IMG/VR virus record: IMGVR_UViG_3300021225_000153
Span: 1-35,470 of that record
Length of the DNA stretch: 35,470 nucleotides
From: a virus
Reading direction: 5' to 3' (one strand)
A program made the translations under genes and the position numbers. The stretch's first letter is position 1; every line of letters starts with the position of its first letter. This document shows, piece by piece, positions 4,656 to 35,247 of this stretch. The notes beneath the pieces were generated by a model. The model was not told the DNA's origin, did no database searches, and saw only the letters and a program-made list of their open reading frames with translations.

Positions 4656-6996
4656 TTCTACTGTTCTTTACTTGTTGTGTAGTATTGCCATTCTTAATGA
4701 ATGTTTCAAAGCCTCTTCTGTCAAAGTTTACCATTAACTGAGGATTAGAAGCCAGTTCTTTGCTAAATGCTTTAGCCATTTTATCATAATCCATATTAGC
4801 ACTTATCATAGTCTTACTTGGCATCAACATCTCAGGTAGCATTTCGTTAGGTATTCCATTAAGTAGCTTGTTTATATGAGCTGGTACTACTCTCTCTCCT
4901 TTAGATAACATAGCTGGAATACTGTCTGAAGTTTCAGAACCAGCACCACTTACAAACTCAGTACCTTTGGCAAACTTAGGTATTTTTTGAGCAGCTATTA
5001 CTGCGACTTGAGCAGCAGTACTTGCAGCAGTAACTGCTAAAGATGCAATAGCTCCAGGATTAAGACTACTTCCAAAAGTTGCAAGTATTTTAGTTATAGC
5101 TAAAGCTCCATTAATTATAGCTTGTGCTATCGCTGCTTGTTTGTCTGCTTGTGCTTGTTTTGTTTTTATTGCAGCTATTTGTCTTTGGTATCTTTCTTCT
5201 ATTCTTGCCTTTTGTTCATCAGTTAGATTTTTATTGGCAAGTTCTTTGTCTTTTAATTGGTTTAATCTTTCTATTTGAGCATTAAACTCAGCATTACGTT
5301 GATTACTTGTAATCTGAAATATAGCATCTGATACCTCTTTTGCACTTTCTATTGTGCCTTCTGCTATTGCTTTTCTTACTTCTTCTTCTTTATCTACTCT
5401 TTCCTTAATCTCTTCTGCTACTGTCTTTCCTTGTGGCTTCTTTTCTAAGTCTGCAAGTGGATTTTTTAACCTATCTAAAGCAGCATTTAAATTATCTATT
5501 TCCTCTCTTACTGCTCTATATGCAGTACTACCCATTTTTAATTTACTTGCTATGTCCTCCCATTGTTCTATTTGTCTTTTGTACCACTCTTCGCTACCTA
5601 CTTCAATAGCTGAAGCTATATTTTCTAAAGCAAGTATCTCTTCTTTTGCTCTCTTTTCTTCTTTTAATACTTTTACTTTCTTTTCTCTTATCTTTTGTAA
5701 ATCTTTTTGTCCTTGTGCTTCAATGTTATAAGATGTTATGTAAGCATTATAAGCCTCTTTTACTTTTTTTATCTGTTCATCTACTTGTTTTTGAGTAGCC
5801 TTATGATAAGTGTCCATTCTTTCATACTTAATACTTTGTACTTGGAATGTTTCTTTCTCAGCTTTTTGAACTGCTTTAAGAGCTTCTACTTGTTTTAAAT
5901 ATTCCTTTCCAGCTGCTGCTCTATCTTGTGCAAGTTTTTCATTGTATTTTATCTGTCCACTTTCTTCTGTAAGCTTACCTATATTTTTTAAATATTCAAT
6001 TTCTTTTTCTAATTGTTTATTGGTCTTTTCGTTAGTCTCTTGTATCTTCTCTTGCTTCTTAGCATAATCAGCAGCACTTTCTGAAGCTCCAAATATTGCA
6101 ACTTTTAACTTATCCCAATTAGTTACAAGAGCAGCAATAGCAATTACTGCAAGTCCTATACCAGTAGCAGCTAAAGCTATTCTAAATGCCTTTAAAGCTC
6201 CTACGCTTTCACCTATTACAAAATTGTAAGCCTTTTGTGCTGCTATATTTAATCCTTGACTAAGAGCAGTTTGTTTTTGAAGTCCATCTTGAATCTGTTT
6301 AAGACCATTAGTAACTGCCATTACTGCATTAAGCTTAACTAAAGTCTTTTCAAGTTCTTTATTTTCACTACCAAATAAAGCTGCTGCTCCTTGCATTACT
6401 TGGAATCCAGCTGCTCCTACTTGTATACCTTGAAGTGCTGCATCCAATTTAAATGTATCAGATGCAAGTACTGATATAGCTTGTTGTGCATCTCCTACCT
6501 GGTCTTTAAGTTCTCCAGCACCTTTAGCCATCTTATAAATTTCAGCAGTACTTAGCTCTCCAGCTATCATCATCTTTACAAGCTCATCTCTTGACTGCCT
6601 TAGTTGTGTTCTGAAGCTTTCTACTTTCTGTGGAGTATCTGGAGGAATAACTGGCTTTGGGTCTGGTTGCTTACCAGCTTCATCATTAAACTTCTTTTGT
6701 GCTGCTAATTGCTCATCAAGTAATTTTTTATTAACTACTAATTTATCTCCAAATAGCTTTATCTTTTGACCAGCTTCATCAACTAATTTACTTCCCCATA
6801 AACCTACTGCTGCTTGAGATGTATTTTTATATGCACTAAGTAGCTTATCCAATGCAGCACCAAACTTTCCTACATTAGTACCTCCATTCTTAAAGCTATC
6901 TTCTACTTCTTTGCTTACTCCTTTTACACTTTCAAGTCCATCTATTGCTGGTTGTAATCCTTTAGTGTCTGCTACCAGTTCTATTGTGTATTTCAT
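4645..6996 (-). CDS. Tail tape measure protein
   Basis: 783 residues with the build of a tape measure. There is an alpha-helical N-terminus, a hydrophobic segment at about 271-291 (ALAATGIGLAVIAIAALV) followed by NWDKLK, long charged coiled coil from about 310 to 640, and a second hydrophobic Ala-rich stretch near 650-700. It then has the Gly-rich GERVVPAHI region common near the C-terminus of such proteins. The protein sets tail length and is ejected during infection; at roughly 0.15 nm per residue it predicts a tail near 115-120 nm. Its start overlaps a 49-codon ORF by 35 bp. Downstream are tail-tip genes, as expected for a siphovirus. Confidence 0.93.
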   Translation of the reverse strand: MKYTIELVADTKGLQPAIDGLESVKGVSKEVEDSFKNGGTNVGKFGAALDKLLSAYKNTSQAAVGLWGSKLVDEAGQKIKLFGDKLVVNKKLLDEQLAAQKKFNDEAGKQPDPKPVIPPDTPQKVESFRTQLRQSRDELVKMMIAGELSTAEIYKMAKGAGELKDQVGDAQQAISVLASDTFKLDAALQGIQVGAAGFQVMQGAAALFGSENKELEKTLVKLNAVMAVTNGLKQIQDGLQKQTALSQGLNIAAQKAYNFVIGESVGALKAFRIALAATGIGLAVIAIAALVTNWDKLKVAIFGASESAADYAKKQEKIQETNEKTNKQLEKEIEYLKNIGKLTEESGQIKYNEKLAQDRAAAGKEYLKQVEALKAVQKAEKETFQVQSIKYERMDTYHKATQKQVDEQIKKVKEAYNAYITSYNIEAQGQKDLQKIREKKVKVLKEEKRAKEEILALENIASAIEVGSEEWYKRQIEQWEDIASKLKMGSTAYRAVREEIDNLNAALDRLKNPLADLEKKPQGKTVAEEIKERVDKEEEVRKAIAEGTIESAKEVSDAIFQITSNQRNAEFNAQIERLNQLKDKELANKNLTDEQKARIEERYQRQIAAIKTKQAQADKQAAIAQAIINGALAITKILATFGSSLNPGAIASLAVTAASTAAQVAVIAAQKIPKFAKGTEFVSGAGSETSDSIPAMLSKGERVVPAHINKLLNGIPNEMLPEMLMPSKTMISANMDYDKMAKAFSKELASNPQLMVNFDRRGFETFIKNGNTTQQVKNSRNDF

Positions 6997-10840: not shown

Positions 10841-10990
10841 CTACTTCTTTTTACCAGCCTTAGCCTTAGCTTTTGCAGCAGTTGAAAGTGCAATAGCAAG
10901 AGCTTGTTTATATGGCTTATCGTGTTTCATTTCAGTTTTAATGTTCTTTGCGATAGTTTTAGGTGAAAATCCTTTCTTTAGTGGAGACAT
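10841..10990 (-). CDS. Small basic protein, DUF6496-like, 49 aa
   Basis: ATG at 10990, TAG at 10841. The product starts MSPLKKGFSPKTIAKNI and ends in Ala/Lys repeats (STAAKAKAKAGKKK). The pattern PLKKGxSxKTIxxNI ... KPxKQAxAIAL is a common tiny phage and bacterial protein. It is highly basic, which would suit nucleic-acid binding, but no role is established. It overlaps the HNH gene end by 13 bp and is followed after 1 bp by the next gene. Confidence 0.85.
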   Translation of the reverse strand: MSPLKKGFSPKTIAKNIKTEMKHDKPYKQALAIALSTAAKAKAKAGKKK

Positions 10991-11442
10991 AATGTTGAAT
11001 CTTTAAATGTGTTTAAAATATAATTATTATAATGATTTTTAGCATCATTAATATCTATAAAAGTTCCTAATCTTTTACCATTTTCAACTTTTACGCTGAA
11101 TTTTCCAGATGGAAGCATTTGTATTCCTTTATATATTTGTTTACTATCTTTTCTTTTTGGCTTATTTCTTAGATTAATAGACCATTCTACTATTCTTAAA
11201 TTTTCTTTTCTATTGTCTAATATATTTCTATTAATATGGTCAATACAATATCCTTTTGGAGCTTTTCCTAATATTAATTGGTGCAATTTTATTCTTTCTT
11301 TTTTATAGTTTATAGTTCTATCACCAGTTATATATCCTTGACCTCCAATAAACCATGAGTATTTATCTAATAAATACTTATCTTCTTCATCAATTAATAT
11401 GATGCTTCTTATATAAGCTTGTTTTTCACAATATTTTGGCAT
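10978..11442 (-). CDS. HNH homing endonuclease
   Basis: 154 residues. The central HNH motif contains H54 (LHQLILG), then DH at 68-69, N71, N73 and N81 (CIDHINRNILDNRKENLR), as in HNH_3-type homing enzymes. Residues about 101-145 (YKGIQMLPSGKFSVKV, LGTFIDINDAKNHY) resemble the AP2-like DNA-binding domain often fused to such nucleases. It is probably a selfish free-standing homing endonuclease that copies itself into related phages lacking it. It overlaps both neighbours (17 and 13 bp), so insertion did not leave spacer DNA. The gene looks more AT-rich than its neighbours. Confidence 0.9.
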   Translation of the reverse strand: MPKYCEKQAYIRSIILIDEEDKYLLDKYSWFIGGQGYITGDRTINYKKERIKLHQLILGKAPKGYCIDHINRNILDNRKENLRIVEWSINLRNKPKRKDSKQIYKGIQMLPSGKFSVKVENGKRLGTFIDINDAKNHYNNYILNTFKDSTLCLH

Positions 11443-13182: not shown

Positions 13183-14490
13183 TTAGAATATGTTGGTATC
13201 TTCTTGAGTTCCTGATATAGTCCAGTCTGTCATAGTTTGTTTCAATTTATCAAAGTAGATGTATCCACCTAAGTAAGAGTCATCTCTGTTCTTCTCGCAG
13301 CATACACTTATCTTTCCTCTTCTATCCTCAGGTATCTGCATAAAATCTAAATTCTTATTATCAGCCAAATACTCATCTGTCATAATATATACCTGAGAAG
13401 CTCCTTGTTCTATACCTCCTCCTCTTAGTCCTTCAAGTCCTTTGTCATCTCCTCTACTCAACTGGCTTAGTAGACATACTGATACTGGATACTCCTTAGC
13501 AAATGAACATATCTGATTTTCCATTAGGTAGAACTGCATATTAACTACTGAGTCTTTACCAAGCAAAGGAATCTTTTGGAAATAGTCAACATAAACTATA
13601 TCGAATTGATGTTTCTTGTATAGCCTAATTAGATTAGACTTGAAGTTATTACTTGTCCAGCCTATGCCTTCTTCAATTAGGATGTTATCGCTTAGTTCTG
13701 TCTGAGCTATGCTATTGTATTCAGTATCTGTTATCTGACCTGATATAATCCTTTTAGCAAATATTTGAGTATGGCTCTGTAGTATTCTTGCTGCCATTCG
13801 TTCTTTAGTCATCTCCAGCGATACAATCATAACCTTATAACCTCGTTTAGCTTGTTCATGTGCTGAGCTAAGTAAAAAAGCAGTCTTTCCAGTTCCTGGT
13901 TTAGCACCTAAAACAGTCACAGTATTAAGGTAAAATTTGATAAAATTAACACATGAAGGTAATTCTTGGCTCTTAAGTTCTCCTAATCTTACGCTGAGAG
14001 CCATTTTAAGTAGGTTTTTTTTGATTATTTCAAGTGAAGTGATGGAATTACTATCTAAAATATTTTGAGCCTTTAAAATAGCGTTATTTGAGTCATCAAT
14101 AAGCTGGAATATATCCTTAGTGTCATCCTGAGCATCTTTGAGTATAGAGTTAGCTATTAGCATCATCTCTCTTTGCATATATTTCTGTCCTATGATACGA
14201 GCATGGTAGTCTATTCCATAGGTAGCCTTATTGGTAAGTTCTGACAAATAGGTATAGCTTCCAGCCTCTTCAAGTTTACCTAACTTCTTTAGCTCTTCTC
14301 CTACTGATAGGATATCTATCGAGTAAGACTTGTTAAATAGGTTTCTTATTGCCTGATAAATGTATTTGTGCTTTGATGCAAAAAAGCACTCTTCGTTTAG
14401 CATCTCGCTTACATGAATATAAGAAGATTGGTCAAATAGTATAGAGCCAAGTAATGCTTCTTCAAGCTCTATTGCATTAGGTATATTCAT
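13183..14490 (-). CDS. DnaB-type replicative helicase
   Basis: 435 residues. The N-terminal primase-interaction domain (about 1-120: AIELEEALLGSILFD) is followed by the RecA-like ATPase. Walker A is at 195-203 (GAKPGTGKT), Walker B is near 300-310 (DIVYVDYFQKI), and the SLEM motif comes after strand 2. Later come LLSQLSRG and GGGIEQGASQV, the H4/arginine-finger region. It should unwind the fork 5' to 3' after loading by the initiator. It overlaps the PD-(D/E)XK-like gene by 14 bp. There is no phage DNA polymerase, so host polymerase must be used. The leader holds CCTAAAAAAC about 7 bases before the ATG, a recurring start-proximal motif here. Confidence 0.95.
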   Translation of the reverse strand: MNIPNAIELEEALLGSILFDQSSYIHVSEMLNEECFFASKHKYIYQAIRNLFNKSYSIDILSVGEELKKLGKLEEAGSYTYLSELTNKATYGIDYHARIIGQKYMQREMMLIANSILKDAQDDTKDIFQLIDDSNNAILKAQNILDSNSITSLEIIKKNLLKMALSVRLGELKSQELPSCVNFIKFYLNTVTVLGAKPGTGKTAFLLSSAHEQAKRGYKVMIVSLEMTKERMAARILQSHTQIFAKRIISGQITDTEYNSIAQTELSDNILIEEGIGWTSNNFKSNLIRLYKKHQFDIVYVDYFQKIPLLGKDSVVNMQFYLMENQICSFAKEYPVSVCLLSQLSRGDDKGLEGLRGGGIEQGASQVYIMTDEYLADNKNLDFMQIPEDRRGKISVCCEKNRDDSYLGGYIYFDKLKQTMTDWTISGTQEDTNIF

Positions 14491-14953
14491 TTGTTTGTTT
14501 TTTAGGTAGTAAAAGTTCGCTAATATAAATTAAGTCTATTGTTCTTACAAGTGTAATCTTATCTTTTCCTCTTGAGTATATCTTGTAAAGCTCTGGAGTT
14601 ATGCACTCTTCTTTAGCAGCACATTTAGACTGTGCAAATAGTACAAGTATCTTTCTGTCCACTATTAGCCAGTAATCATTAAGTTCAAAAGCTATGTAGT
14701 CAGCTTTGCCATATAGCCATCCAAGTTCTCCATTTACATTAATGAACTCTACATAGTGTATATTATCATCTGGCTCTCCAGTTGCAGTTCTAACTCTCTT
14801 TACTGCCTTTACATCAAACTTTGTTTCAAGTTTAATATCCCAATGCTCAAACATATCTTGTTCTTCTGTTGACTCTGAGATAGTTCCCCAGTCTGATATC
14901 TGTTTAGCAAAGTCTTCTTCTTGTTGTTTGAATTTAAGTACTCTTGGTTTCAT
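14477..14953 (-). CDS. PD-(D/E)XK-like phage protein
   Basis: 158 residues. The core DMFEHWDIKLETKFDVKAVK (33-52) carries D39 and D47-V-K49, resembling a PD-(D/E)XK nuclease active site, and is followed by strands (HYVEFINV, GWLYGKADYIAFEL). Proteins with this hWDi...DVK...GWLYG.ADYIAFE pattern occur in replication modules of Bacteroidetes phages. A nuclease or resolvase-like role is possible but not shown. It sits between the initiator (4-bp overlap) and helicase genes. Confidence 0.65.
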   Translation of the reverse strand: MKPRVLKFKQQEEDFAKQISDWGTISESTEEQDMFEHWDIKLETKFDVKAVKRVRTATGEPDDNIHYVEFINVNGELGWLYGKADYIAFELNDYWLIVDRKILVLFAQSKCAAKEECITPELYKIYSRGKDKITLVRTIDLIYISELLLPKKQTNEYT

Positions 14954-15711
14954 TTTCTTAGGTATTTGTTTACAAAGTGCTTTTGAAATTCATAGTGGCT
15001 CATATACTTTTCAGTTCTGAAGCATTGGCTGGTAAGACAATAGTTTATAAACTCAGTAAGCTTATTTCTTACTTTACTCTTATCTGTATCTCTGCTTATC
15101 TGCATTATCCAGTCTGAGTCAGTAGTTGCCTGATAAAGTATATCTACAAAGTCCTTGTATTGGTCATTAGCTTTATCTGTTGTGTAAACTATTGGAGCAT
15201 ATACCATAAAGTCAGATGCAAGTCTTGAAATAAAGTTCTCTGGATATTTAGTAAACTCAAACTTTCTAAACTCAATAAAAGACTCTATATCTTTTATATT
15301 GTTTCCTTTTATTTCCTTTCCTTTCCTTTCCTTTATAGCATTGCCATCGCATTGCGTTCGCATTGCGTTCGCATTATTCCATCTCTTAATAGCTGACTCT
15401 CTTGCCTTTACGCTTTTAGCATTTCTTTCTTCAAGTCTTCTTTCTACTGATAAAGAACCAAAAGTATCATTATCAAAAACAAATAAATCAAAGTCTAAAA
15501 GTATAGATTTTATAAGTTCGCTATCCACTCGCAATTCAAACGCAATTCCATCGCAATCCAATCGCAATGCGTTCGCATTATTATATAAGTCCTCAACTAT
15601 TGCCCAGAATAAACCATATCCTAAATATCCATGCTTCCTGATTAATCGCTTAATCTTTTCATCATTCCTGACATTATAATCGTGGCTGAAATAAAATGTA
15701 TCCTTATTCAT
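14950..15711 (-). CDS. Replication initiator, Lin1244/Lin1753-like (DUF4373)
   Basis: 253 residues starting MNKDTFYFSHDYNVRND. A TTG-started extension from 15762 would cross the structured leader and is not favoured. The N-terminal domain (about 1-95: KIKRLIRKHGYLGYGLFWAIVE) is the winged-helix seen in DUF4373 proteins, related to initiators such as DnaD and lambda O-like proteins. The middle is basic and Asn/Lys-rich, and the C-terminal part (about 150-253) is helical, likely for helicase contact. The gene carries two sets of 11-bp DNA repeats and a GGAAA run, so it probably contains the origin, as in lambda O. DnaB-type helicase and SSB-like genes follow. Confidence 0.85.
   Translation of the reverse strand: MNKDTFYFSHDYNVRNDEKIKRLIRKHGYLGYGLFWAIVEDLYNNANALRLDCDGIAFELRVDSELIKSILLDFDLFVFDNDTFGSLSVERRLEERNAKSVKARESAIKRWNNANAMRTQCDGNAIKERKGKEIKGNNIKDIESFIEFRKFEFTKYPENFISRLASDFMVYAPIVYTTDKANDQYKDFVDILYQATTDSDWIMQISRDTDKSKVRNKLTEFINYCLTSQCFRTEKYMSHYEFQKHFVNKYLRK
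15302..15334 (-). repeat. Purine-rich pentanucleotide run in initiator gene
   Basis: On the coding strand GGAAA is repeated four times in tandem (15312-15331), followed by AAATAAAAGG and AT-rich DNA. It lies directly next to the first iteron cluster. The strand bias and low stability could help unwinding at an origin. At protein level it encodes KERKGKEIKG, part of the basic linker. Confidence 0.6.
15332..15375 (-). repeat. Iteron cluster 1 (11-bp units)
   Basis: Plus-strand units in tandem: TTTATAGCATT (15332-15342, degenerate), GCCATCGCATT (15343-15353), GCGTTCGCATT (15354-15364) and GCGTTCGCATT (15365-15375). The coding-strand core is AATGCG. The 11-bp period is not a multiple of three, so it cannot come from repeated amino acids. 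A binding site array for the initiator encoded by the same gene is the simplest reading. Confidence 0.8.
15514..15579 (-). repeat. Iteron cluster 2 (six 11-bp units)
   Basis: Six contiguous 11-bp units on the plus strand: AAGTTCGCTAT, CCACTCGCAAT, TCAAACGCAAT, TCCATCGCAAT, CCAATCGCAAT, GCGTTCGCATT. The conserved core is CGCAAT/CGCATT. The last unit is identical to two units of cluster 1. With cluster 1, the purine run and the AT-rich flanks, this is the best candidate for the replication origin. Confidence 0.82.
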
Positions 15712-15727
15712 ATTGTATAAAATAAAA

Positions 15728-15752
15728 TTGGCACAATCGAAATGTGTAGGCT
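15728..15752 (-). repeat. Shared leader element, copy 2
   Basis: Plus strand: TTGGCACAA, three bases, AAATG, three bases, AGGCT. It matches the blocks of 1920-1945. On the coding strand TTGTGCCAA lies 16 bases before the initiator ATG. It overlaps two arms of the interleaved inverted repeats described for 15729-15804, so the sequence may be kept both as RNA structure and as a protein site. Confidence 0.45.
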
Positions 15753-16660: not shown

Positions 16661-17209
16661 TTAAGCGTTTAATTTTGTTACTAATTGGTTTCTAAATTCT
16701 TTACTCATAGCATATGGAGCTTGAGAATACTTTGTAAGTACTGCTTTAATTTGCTTTGGCTCTGCTTCTAAAGCTTTCTTAAACTGAGCATCTGTAAGCC
16801 ATATAGTTTCTTCTTTCTTAGGCTCTACTGCTTTCTGAGCATCATCATCCTGGTCTTGGATAGTTAAATTAAGCAGACCAGACAAAGAATATCTCTTAGC
16901 ATAGCTAACTGCTGAGCCATAACTCTGAGCATCTGCCTTAGTAACTACTACTGGAAATACTGAGCTTTCAAACTCTCCAGACTCTACATCAATTACTTTA
17001 GTTTCAACAAATAGTTGATTAGAGTCATCTGAATAAACATTACGCTGGATAACTACCAAACCACATTCAATAAGTGTAGGCTTGATATGTTCTTGGATGT
17101 GGTCAAGTGATGCGTAACTTGACTTAAAAAAAGGATTGTTTGCATCCTTCTTAATTGGTTTTACAAGTTGCTGGAACTTGCTGAGTGCTTTTAGCAAACT
17201 TTTGTTCAT
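16661..17209 (-). CDS. erf: ERF-family single-strand annealing protein
   Basis: 182 residues with the ERF core: KPIKKDANNPFFKSSYASLD (18-37), HIQEHIKPTLIECGLVVIQ, and YGSAVSYAKRYSLSGLLNL (95-113), the family signature. A charged linker (DDDAQKAVEPKKEE) leads to a C-terminal helical part. ERF proteins anneal complementary single strands, driving phage recombination and genome circularisation. NinG downstream would process the products. Its start lies 59 bp inside the upstream DnaA-domain-like gene, an unusually long overlap. The leader has CCTAAAACAAAATC before the ATG. Confidence 0.93.
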   Translation of the reverse strand: MNKSLLKALSKFQQLVKPIKKDANNPFFKSSYASLDHIQEHIKPTLIECGLVVIQRNVYSDDSNQLFVETKVIDVESGEFESSVFPVVVTKADAQSYGSAVSYAKRYSLSGLLNLTIQDQDDDAQKAVEPKKEETIWLTDAQFKKALEAEPKQIKAVLTKYSQAPYAMSKEFRNQLVTKLNA

Positions 17210-34387: not shown

Positions 34388-35247
34388 ATCTTATTTCTTT
34401 CTTTTATGAATAATCTTTTATCTCGAATATTATAAGCCTTTCCTAATCCAGACTTATCACTATGGTATTTACTGATGTCAGTAAAGTTCTTCTTTACAGT
34501 AGTAGGAGTTTGATTACCACCAACAGAATAAGCATAATACTTCTTAGCTAATTGGTATGGCATTAAACTCATATCTTGTCTATCTCTCGCATACCAGAAT
34601 ATAGGCAACCAGTTTTCTTTATGTGGATACTGGTCTACTTCTAAAGATGCTAACTGAAATGCTAACTCATCTGCTATCCTTGCACCTCCAAATTCTCTAC
34701 CTTTTACTCTTGGATTGTCAAACATTTCCTTGACCTTGTCAAAGTATATCTTGCTCGTATCGTTCTTTACAAAGTACACACACTCGCTATGGTAGTTCCA
34801 CATATCCTTATCTGGATACAATGCTTTTACATCTTCTATGTTTGCCCATATAGTATATGTAGCCTTACCAGTATTAGACATTGTCCAATTACTATCTCCA
34901 GCTTCAGCCATTAACTCTGAAGGAGTCTTCTTAAATAGCCAAACCATATCTGCATCTAAGAATAAAGTCTGGTCATAAGGACTTAAATCATACATGAAAG
35001 TCTTTACCTTGATGTACTCTGTTACTCCTTTTGTAGTATATGCTTTCTTAGGAACTTTAATTAACTTATCAAACAAAGTACTTTTAACTTCGTTATAGTT
35101 ATGAGCTAAAGCTATCTTAATACCTGGCTCTACATTCTTTAAAGACATAGCCAAGTTCTCAGCCATTGCCAAGTACTCGAATGAACCAATAGCTATTAAT
35201 AGTATTCCTTTGTTAGCAGCTTCCTCCACAGTTGTTATTTTTGCCAT
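34384..35247 (-). CDS. Glycosyltransferase, GT-A type
   Basis: 287 residues. TLFLDADMVWLF (95-105) has the D98-x-D100 metal/nucleotide-sugar motif of GT-A enzymes, related to GT8-like families, with a Rossmann-type N-terminal strand (GILLIAIGSFEYL). It probably transfers a sugar from a nucleotide donor, perhaps onto virion proteins or host surface glycans. It lies between the end of the large tail gene (35-bp overlap) and the portal gene (4-bp overlap). Target unknown. Confidence 0.85.
   Translation of the reverse strand: MAKITTVEEAANKGILLIAIGSFEYLAMAENLAMSLKNVEPGIKIALAHNYNEVKSTLFDKLIKVPKKAYTTKGVTEYIKVKTFMYDLSPYDQTLFLDADMVWLFKKTPSELMAEAGDSNWTMSNTGKATYTIWANIEDVKALYPDKDMWNYHSECVYFVKNDTSKIYFDKVKEMFDNPRVKGREFGGARIADELAFQLASLEVDQYPHKENWLPIFWYARDRQDMSLMPYQLAKKYYAYSVGGNQTPTTVKKNFTDISKYHSDKSGLGKAYNIRDKRLFIKERNKI

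Follow-up and report, generated by a model that had tools for sequence, protein, structure and literature searches.

A pair of 11-bp repeat arrays and an adjoining purine tract, found inside a phage replication initiator gene, very probably form the replication origin of the phage, embedded as in lambda within the gene for its own initiator. The locus lies in an IMG/VR phage contig of 35,470 nucleotides, the whole of which was analysed and is referred to here as the window. The arrays and the tract are under selection at the nucleotide level. Their layout recurs in relatives and they move as a cassette; some phages have no array in the initiator gene and carry a copy between genes, beside AT-rich DNA. 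A preliminary description, made from the letters alone, had interpreted the locus as a probable origin, with theta replication as the presumed mode, and the interpretation as an origin gains support from the nucleotide-level constraint, the period-11 layout, the cassette and the intergenic copies. From these patterns we infer that initiator binding, DNA melting, helicase loading and the start of replication would take place at this locus.

The initiator and its genomic neighbourhood

The initiator gene (14950-15711, - strand) encodes a protein of 253 amino acids. It probably starts at ATG 15711, rather than at TTG 15762, because the alignment with relatives favors the former. The preliminary description had already called it a replication initiator gene, an assignment borne out by profile matches to Lin1244_N (PF14297; E = 6.6e-12, 46.4 bits versus a curated cut-off of 25) in a Pfam scan and to the "replication initiation protein" family phrog_2562 (E = 5.8e-15) in a PHROGs scan. 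The only other matches in the two scans were to unknown families; the lambda O family profile was absent from both, and RepA_N (PF06970) was absent among the Pfam matches. The protein comprises an N-terminal Lin1244_N winged helix (residues ~10-115), a disordered linker (~113-140) and a separate C-terminal region. In an AlphaFold2 model, pLDDT is mostly 86-98 for residues ~11-110 and is ≤50 over residues 121-140, a stretch encoded in part by array 2 and the purine tract. The family profile found no relative among PDB sequences (best E = 0.42), and Foldseek returned nothing below E = 0.001. According to VIA-align, the nearest solved folds are generic winged helices only; the RepA_N structures 4pql, 5kbj and 4pta score Z 5.8-6.3 over residues 1-88, tied with the winged helices of CRP-type regulators. 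A literature search found no papers on Lin1244 replication, and those that mention DUF4373 concern iron in Bacteroides. The bacterial relatives are from Bacteroidota.

Nearly every gene of the window is on the - strand. A DnaB-type replicative helicase (13183-14490, - strand; PF03796, E = 6.5e-29; PF00772, E = 2.2e-24; phrog_19, E = 7.9e-49) is encoded downstream of the initiator, and an ERF single-strand annealing protein (16661-17209, - strand; PF04404, E = 1.3e-30) upstream, in the same replication/recombination module. Between initiator and helicase lies the gene of a 158-amino-acid protein (14477-14953, - strand) with no Pfam or PHROG match, which is a candidate helicase loader or nuclease; no helicase loader, and no loader of the P type, was identified in the phage. 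Near the terminase genes, an open reading frame at 10978-11442 (- strand) resembles an HNH-type homing endonuclease by eye. On the opposite strand, a 126-codon open reading frame (15299-15679, + strand) covers the arrays. It is probably not a gene, and is probably open because the repeats carry no stop codons in that frame.

GC skew had been named as a check in the preliminary description; it is negative almost throughout, does not switch at 15.3-15.6 kb, and gives no help. A perfect TTATCCACA DnaA box is absent from the window, TTATCCACA with one mismatch is absent within 2.5 kb of the arrays, and only one-mismatch matches to the looser TTATNCACA lie nearer. DnaA boxes at origins are not universal.

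Two 11-bp arrays and a purine tract under nucleotide-level selection

Array 1 (15514-15579, - strand), supported by a tandem-repeat scan and codon shuffles, consists of six contiguous 11-bp units of the ATTGCGA type in the part of the gene that encodes winged-helix residues 45-66. Read on the - strand from 15579 to 15514, the units are AATGCGAACGC ATTGCGATTGG ATTGCGATGGA ATTGCGTTTGA ATTGCGAGTGG ATAGCGAACTT. Array 2 (15332-15375, - strand), supported by the repeat scan and by synonymous diversity, has four units, AATGCGAACGC AATGCGAACGC AATGCGATGGC AATGCTATAAA from 15375 to 15332, and encodes the disordered linker that follows the winged helix, between the DNA-binding and C-terminal parts. The units are direct repeats whose internal symmetry is confined to a short TGCG..CGCA. 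Adjoining array 2 is a purine/A-rich (AAAGG)n tract (15302-15334, - strand) recognized by its period of 5 in TRF, its purine content and its synonymous diversity; it reads as (TTTCC)6.6 on the + strand, is about 94-97% purine on the - strand and, at 32/33 purines, is the most purine-rich - strand 33-mer of the window. No obvious melting tract adjoins array 1. These results agree with the preliminary description, which had reported six contiguous units in the first array, three to four in the second, an 11-mer present three times exactly and a GGAAA run beside the second array. The exact copies of the 11-mer, AATGCGAACGC, are at 15354, 15365 and 15569.

The two arrays are the top-scoring tandem arrays of the window (scores of 60-69, all others ≤54). 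With up to 2 mismatches allowed, AATGCGAACGC has 7 matches in the window versus 2.1 expected, a count reached in 0/100 shuffles, and a single match outside the arrays, with 2 mismatches, at 34658. The pattern also exceeds what the protein and its codon set would produce. In 1000 synonymous shuffles of the initiator gene, with both held fixed, the 11-bp self-match reached at most 30 versus 34/44 in the real gene, and the 6-unit score at most 49 versus 53. Array codons are rare elsewhere in the phage, where GCG makes up 1% of Ala codons and ACG 2% of Thr codons.

Comparison with relatives reveals where selection acts. From viral contigs, 80 relatives were taken with degenerate patterns, and diversity was computed on 36 divergent ones as the frequency with which sequence pairs that share an amino acid differ in codon. 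Synonymous diversity is 0.036 in array 1 (residues 45-56), 0.023 in array 2 and 0.045 in the purine tract, compared to 0.37 elsewhere in the conserved part of the gene and 0.22 in the lowest 12-codon window outside the arrays and tract; P values for the drop are ~1e-10 and ~1e-6. It is not an artefact of the search, since the patterns used to retrieve the relatives left synonymous positions free. The repeats of array 2 persist in relatives that have gained or lost codons before them. An alignment of related genes, proposed earlier as a check, was run and revealed repeats kept at the nucleotide level in a gene that otherwise varies; more distant relatives have a different repeat sequence but the same 11-bp period. 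The earlier statement that protein repeats do not explain the arrays is upheld by the codon shuffles and the frozen synonymous sites. In the close clade the linker peptide NANAM-TQ--GNAIKERKGKEIK is conserved and, given the synonymous constraint on the arrays, this peptide is mostly a shadow of the DNA element.

Relatives, an exchangeable cassette and copies outside the gene

The linker repeats of more distant relatives keep the spacing and change the sequence. In 28/47 non-redundant distant relatives the linker fits a period of 11 best; any other period is best in at most 4, and the mean z of period 11 is 1.41 versus ~0 for periods 7-10 and 12-17. Clade-specific units occupy the same place in the linker (CGTTCAACGAC, CTTCGAACGAC, GTTCAACGGAC, GGGGTTCAACC, ATAGCCACCCT, ATAGCAATGCT and AATGCAAATGCA), followed by an AAAG-type tract in most relatives. 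An unbiased sample, drawn from 395 Bacteroidota genomes by the winged-helix profile alone, had a period-11 optimum in 9/27 PF14297 proteins and none in the other 18, so that 11-bp repeats are common but not universal. Matching repeats often occur also inside the winged-helix coding part, as array 1, in clades of the AATGC type. Array 1 is absent in GTTCAAC-type clades and was rejected as a general feature.

An exchangeable cassette (15286-15728, - strand) comprises the DNA-binding domain, the two arrays and the purine tract, as indicated by comparison with 79 relatives and the sister phage L002. Within the flanks fetched, the 79 other phages share only 15286-15728 with the window (ends at 15286-15308 and 15705-15728). 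L002 matches the window at 75-79% nucleotide identity over 12.2-15.33 kb and 16.2-18.6 kb, and is not homologous over the domain-plus-array segment. Between the matching flanks its winged-helix segment is very different and carries repeats of its own, CGTTCAACGAG CGTTCAACAAA and then AAAGTAAATAAAGTAAAT. These sequence comparisons show the arrays moving together with the DNA-binding domain, which is what would be expected if the winged-helix domain reads the arrays.

A search of IMG/VR with the exact 29-bp array, blind to protein, retrieved 58 contigs, nearly all with the array in Lin1244_N or DUF1376 initiator genes. Many have it in the Lin1244_N linker and a large share at the corresponding position of a DUF1376 gene; this sorting is approximate, as the 33 contigs labelled winged-helix include a few DUF1376 genes (such as L209, L212 and L243). 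Nine array-bearing genes that were scanned are DUF1376, with E from 8e-19 to 2e-27. The DUF1376 initiators of L204, L205, L208, L210, L216, L221, L226, L232 and L253 have the 29-bp array in the linker. Thus some DUF1376 (YdaU-type) phage proteins have an identical array at the same linker position. They differ in belonging to a separate Pfam family and in the tract after the array, which consists of other 5-6 bp microsatellites (ACCAAT, CCCAAT, AGAAG, ACACAAG), themselves possible unwinding elements. The Lin1244_N and DUF1376 profiles are similar with a probability of 99% with the linker and 62% for the winged-helix part alone (E = 7e-5, single comparison). Common descent of the two winged helices is plausible but unproven, because the profile similarity of the winged-helix part is only modest. 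An origin of the array as a host repeat was rejected, the exact array being present in 0/395 Bacteroidota genomes.

Three of the contigs, two of them near relatives, carry the array outside any clear gene (L222, ~608; L250, ~6000-6030; L255, ~10087). The intergenic arrays adjoin AT-rich DNA of the AAATAAAATT or AAATAAAATTAAATAAAATT type, downstream of a small unrelated gene. All three contigs encode a Lin1244_N protein ~1.7-3 kb away (a distance that for one of them, G001, holds only if the contig is circular), the linker of which lacks the repeats. Judged by sequence, the intergenic copies represent an element that has been relocated naturally. The array locus is the sole repeat site in nearly every phage checked; the exceptions, G007 and G417, are two related DUF1376 phages in which one further iteron-like site, AATGCAAACGCAATGC, lies ~8.4 kb away from the main array (G007:C1:321-336 and G417:C1:12239-12254). 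The Rac prophage of E. coli K-12 carries a known origin, oriJ (PMC3945230). The linker of its DUF1376 gene, ydaU (L272:9120-9977), has three GTTCAAAC sites, one inverted and two 33 bp apart, and a ATAAAGATACAGATAAAGAT tract; the ydaU repeats are only a lead, because 11-bp repeats in this gene do not rise above codon shuffles.

Alternative explanations and comparison with known origins

The arrays could be initiator binding sites that serve only autoregulation, copy control, handcuffing or partition, with replication starting elsewhere. Iteron-type sites often repress the rep gene too, and array 1, confined to some clades, has no obvious adjoining tract of the kind expected to melt. This explanation is nonetheless unlikely, since a purine or AT-type tract, under synonymous constraint of its own, comes after array 2 in nearly all cases, and since the intergenic copies, which lie downstream of a small unrelated gene, adjoin strongly AT-rich DNA. 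An RNA element in the initiator mRNA, for translation control or structure, would likewise be selected at the nucleotide level, and as RNA the palindromic repeats fold better than shuffles (z of -3.0 and -3.4); the stable folds arise because the arrays hold partial palindromes. We regard an RNA element as highly unlikely: an Rfam search gave no match, array copies lie outside any clear gene, and clades change the repeat sequence yet keep the 11-bp spacing, which suits helical phasing of duplex DNA.

Because a cassette boundary adjoins an array, the repeats might instead serve recombination or packaging, or be a mobile repeat that sits by chance at a module boundary. With repeats confined to the array locus in nearly every phage checked, G007 and G417 excepted, and the exact array missing from all 395 Bacteroidota genomes, such a role is still less probable. 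Scarcely credible is a coding low-complexity linker in which the DNA repeats are incidental. The conserved linker peptide of the close clade is what such a linker would predict, but units of 11 bp do not correspond to whole codons, synonymous positions hardly vary, the pattern is lost when codons are shuffled, and three phages do without the peptide and carry the DNA elsewhere.

If the arrays and tract are the origin, the Lin1244_N winged helix would bind one 11-bp direct repeat per turn of the DNA helix, and the nucleoprotein complex would bend or strain the DNA. The adjacent asymmetric (AAAGG)n tract, the proposed duplex-unwinding element, would be destabilised and opened, and the C-terminal domain would deliver the DnaB-type helicase of the phage, a route also taken by lambda O with its iterons and AT-rich tract (PMC7466680, PMC5043065). 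Lambda O and other initiators bind iterons within their own gene, and in the O gene the iterons follow the N-terminal DNA-binding domain and precede the C-terminal part. The lambda ori has its iterons in the middle of the O gene with an AT-rich tract beside them, and in Stx phages additional iterons lengthen O by extra amino acids (PMC7466680, PMC5043065). Like lambda, the phage studied here carries its iterons midway through the gene for the initiator, with an A/T- or purine-rich tract directly adjoining, and the analogy to lambda O drawn in the preliminary description appears sound as to mechanism. It does not extend to the protein: with no O profile match, and with 11-bp direct repeats instead of the 18-19 bp inverted-repeat iterons of lambda, the initiator belongs to a different family. 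Also unlike lambda, the coding region of the DNA-binding domain itself contains a second array, and a DnaB-type helicase is encoded by the phage, with no P-type loader identified.

Replicons of the RepA_N type also have the origin inside the rep gene. RepA_N initiators, such as RepA of pSK41/pTZ2162 and of PLE, bind iterons with an N-terminal winged helix and have a variable, host-specific C-terminus (PMC7145576). The fold match over residues 1-88, shared equally by CRP-type regulators, does not decide membership of RepA_N; the lack of a Pfam match and the length and sequence of the iterons are differences. The iteron plasmids P1, RK2, pSC101 and R6K have direct repeats in helix phase next to an A+T-rich region (PMC5043065). 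The helix-phased 11-bp direct repeats (6 and 4 units) and the adjoining tract are similar, whereas the repeats here are inside the initiator gene and the window has no perfect DnaA box.

That an origin can lie in the initiator gene is already known from lambda O. What is added here is a pattern that spans the family, a code of only 11 bp, an extra array within the DNA-binding domain, and the portability of the element. A wider proposal, for and against which we lean about equally, is that array and winged-helix domain form a portable replicator cartridge that is shared across initiator families and probably bacterial phyla. Lin1244_N and DUF1376 would share an 11-bp code that diversifies by clade together with its reader, and the DNA part could leave the gene and work intergenically, after which the gene loses the linker. 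Origins are unknown for most uncultured phages, and for Lin1244_N/DUF4373 and DUF1376, both large families of phage proteins, little has been described about function. If the reading of the arrays as an embedded origin is right, the linkers of both families would allow the replication origin to be located from sequence alone in phages of Bacteroidota and Firmicutes, and probably in others, and the many natural iteron variants, paired with their readers, would be a ready data set for how winged-helix DNA specificity changes.
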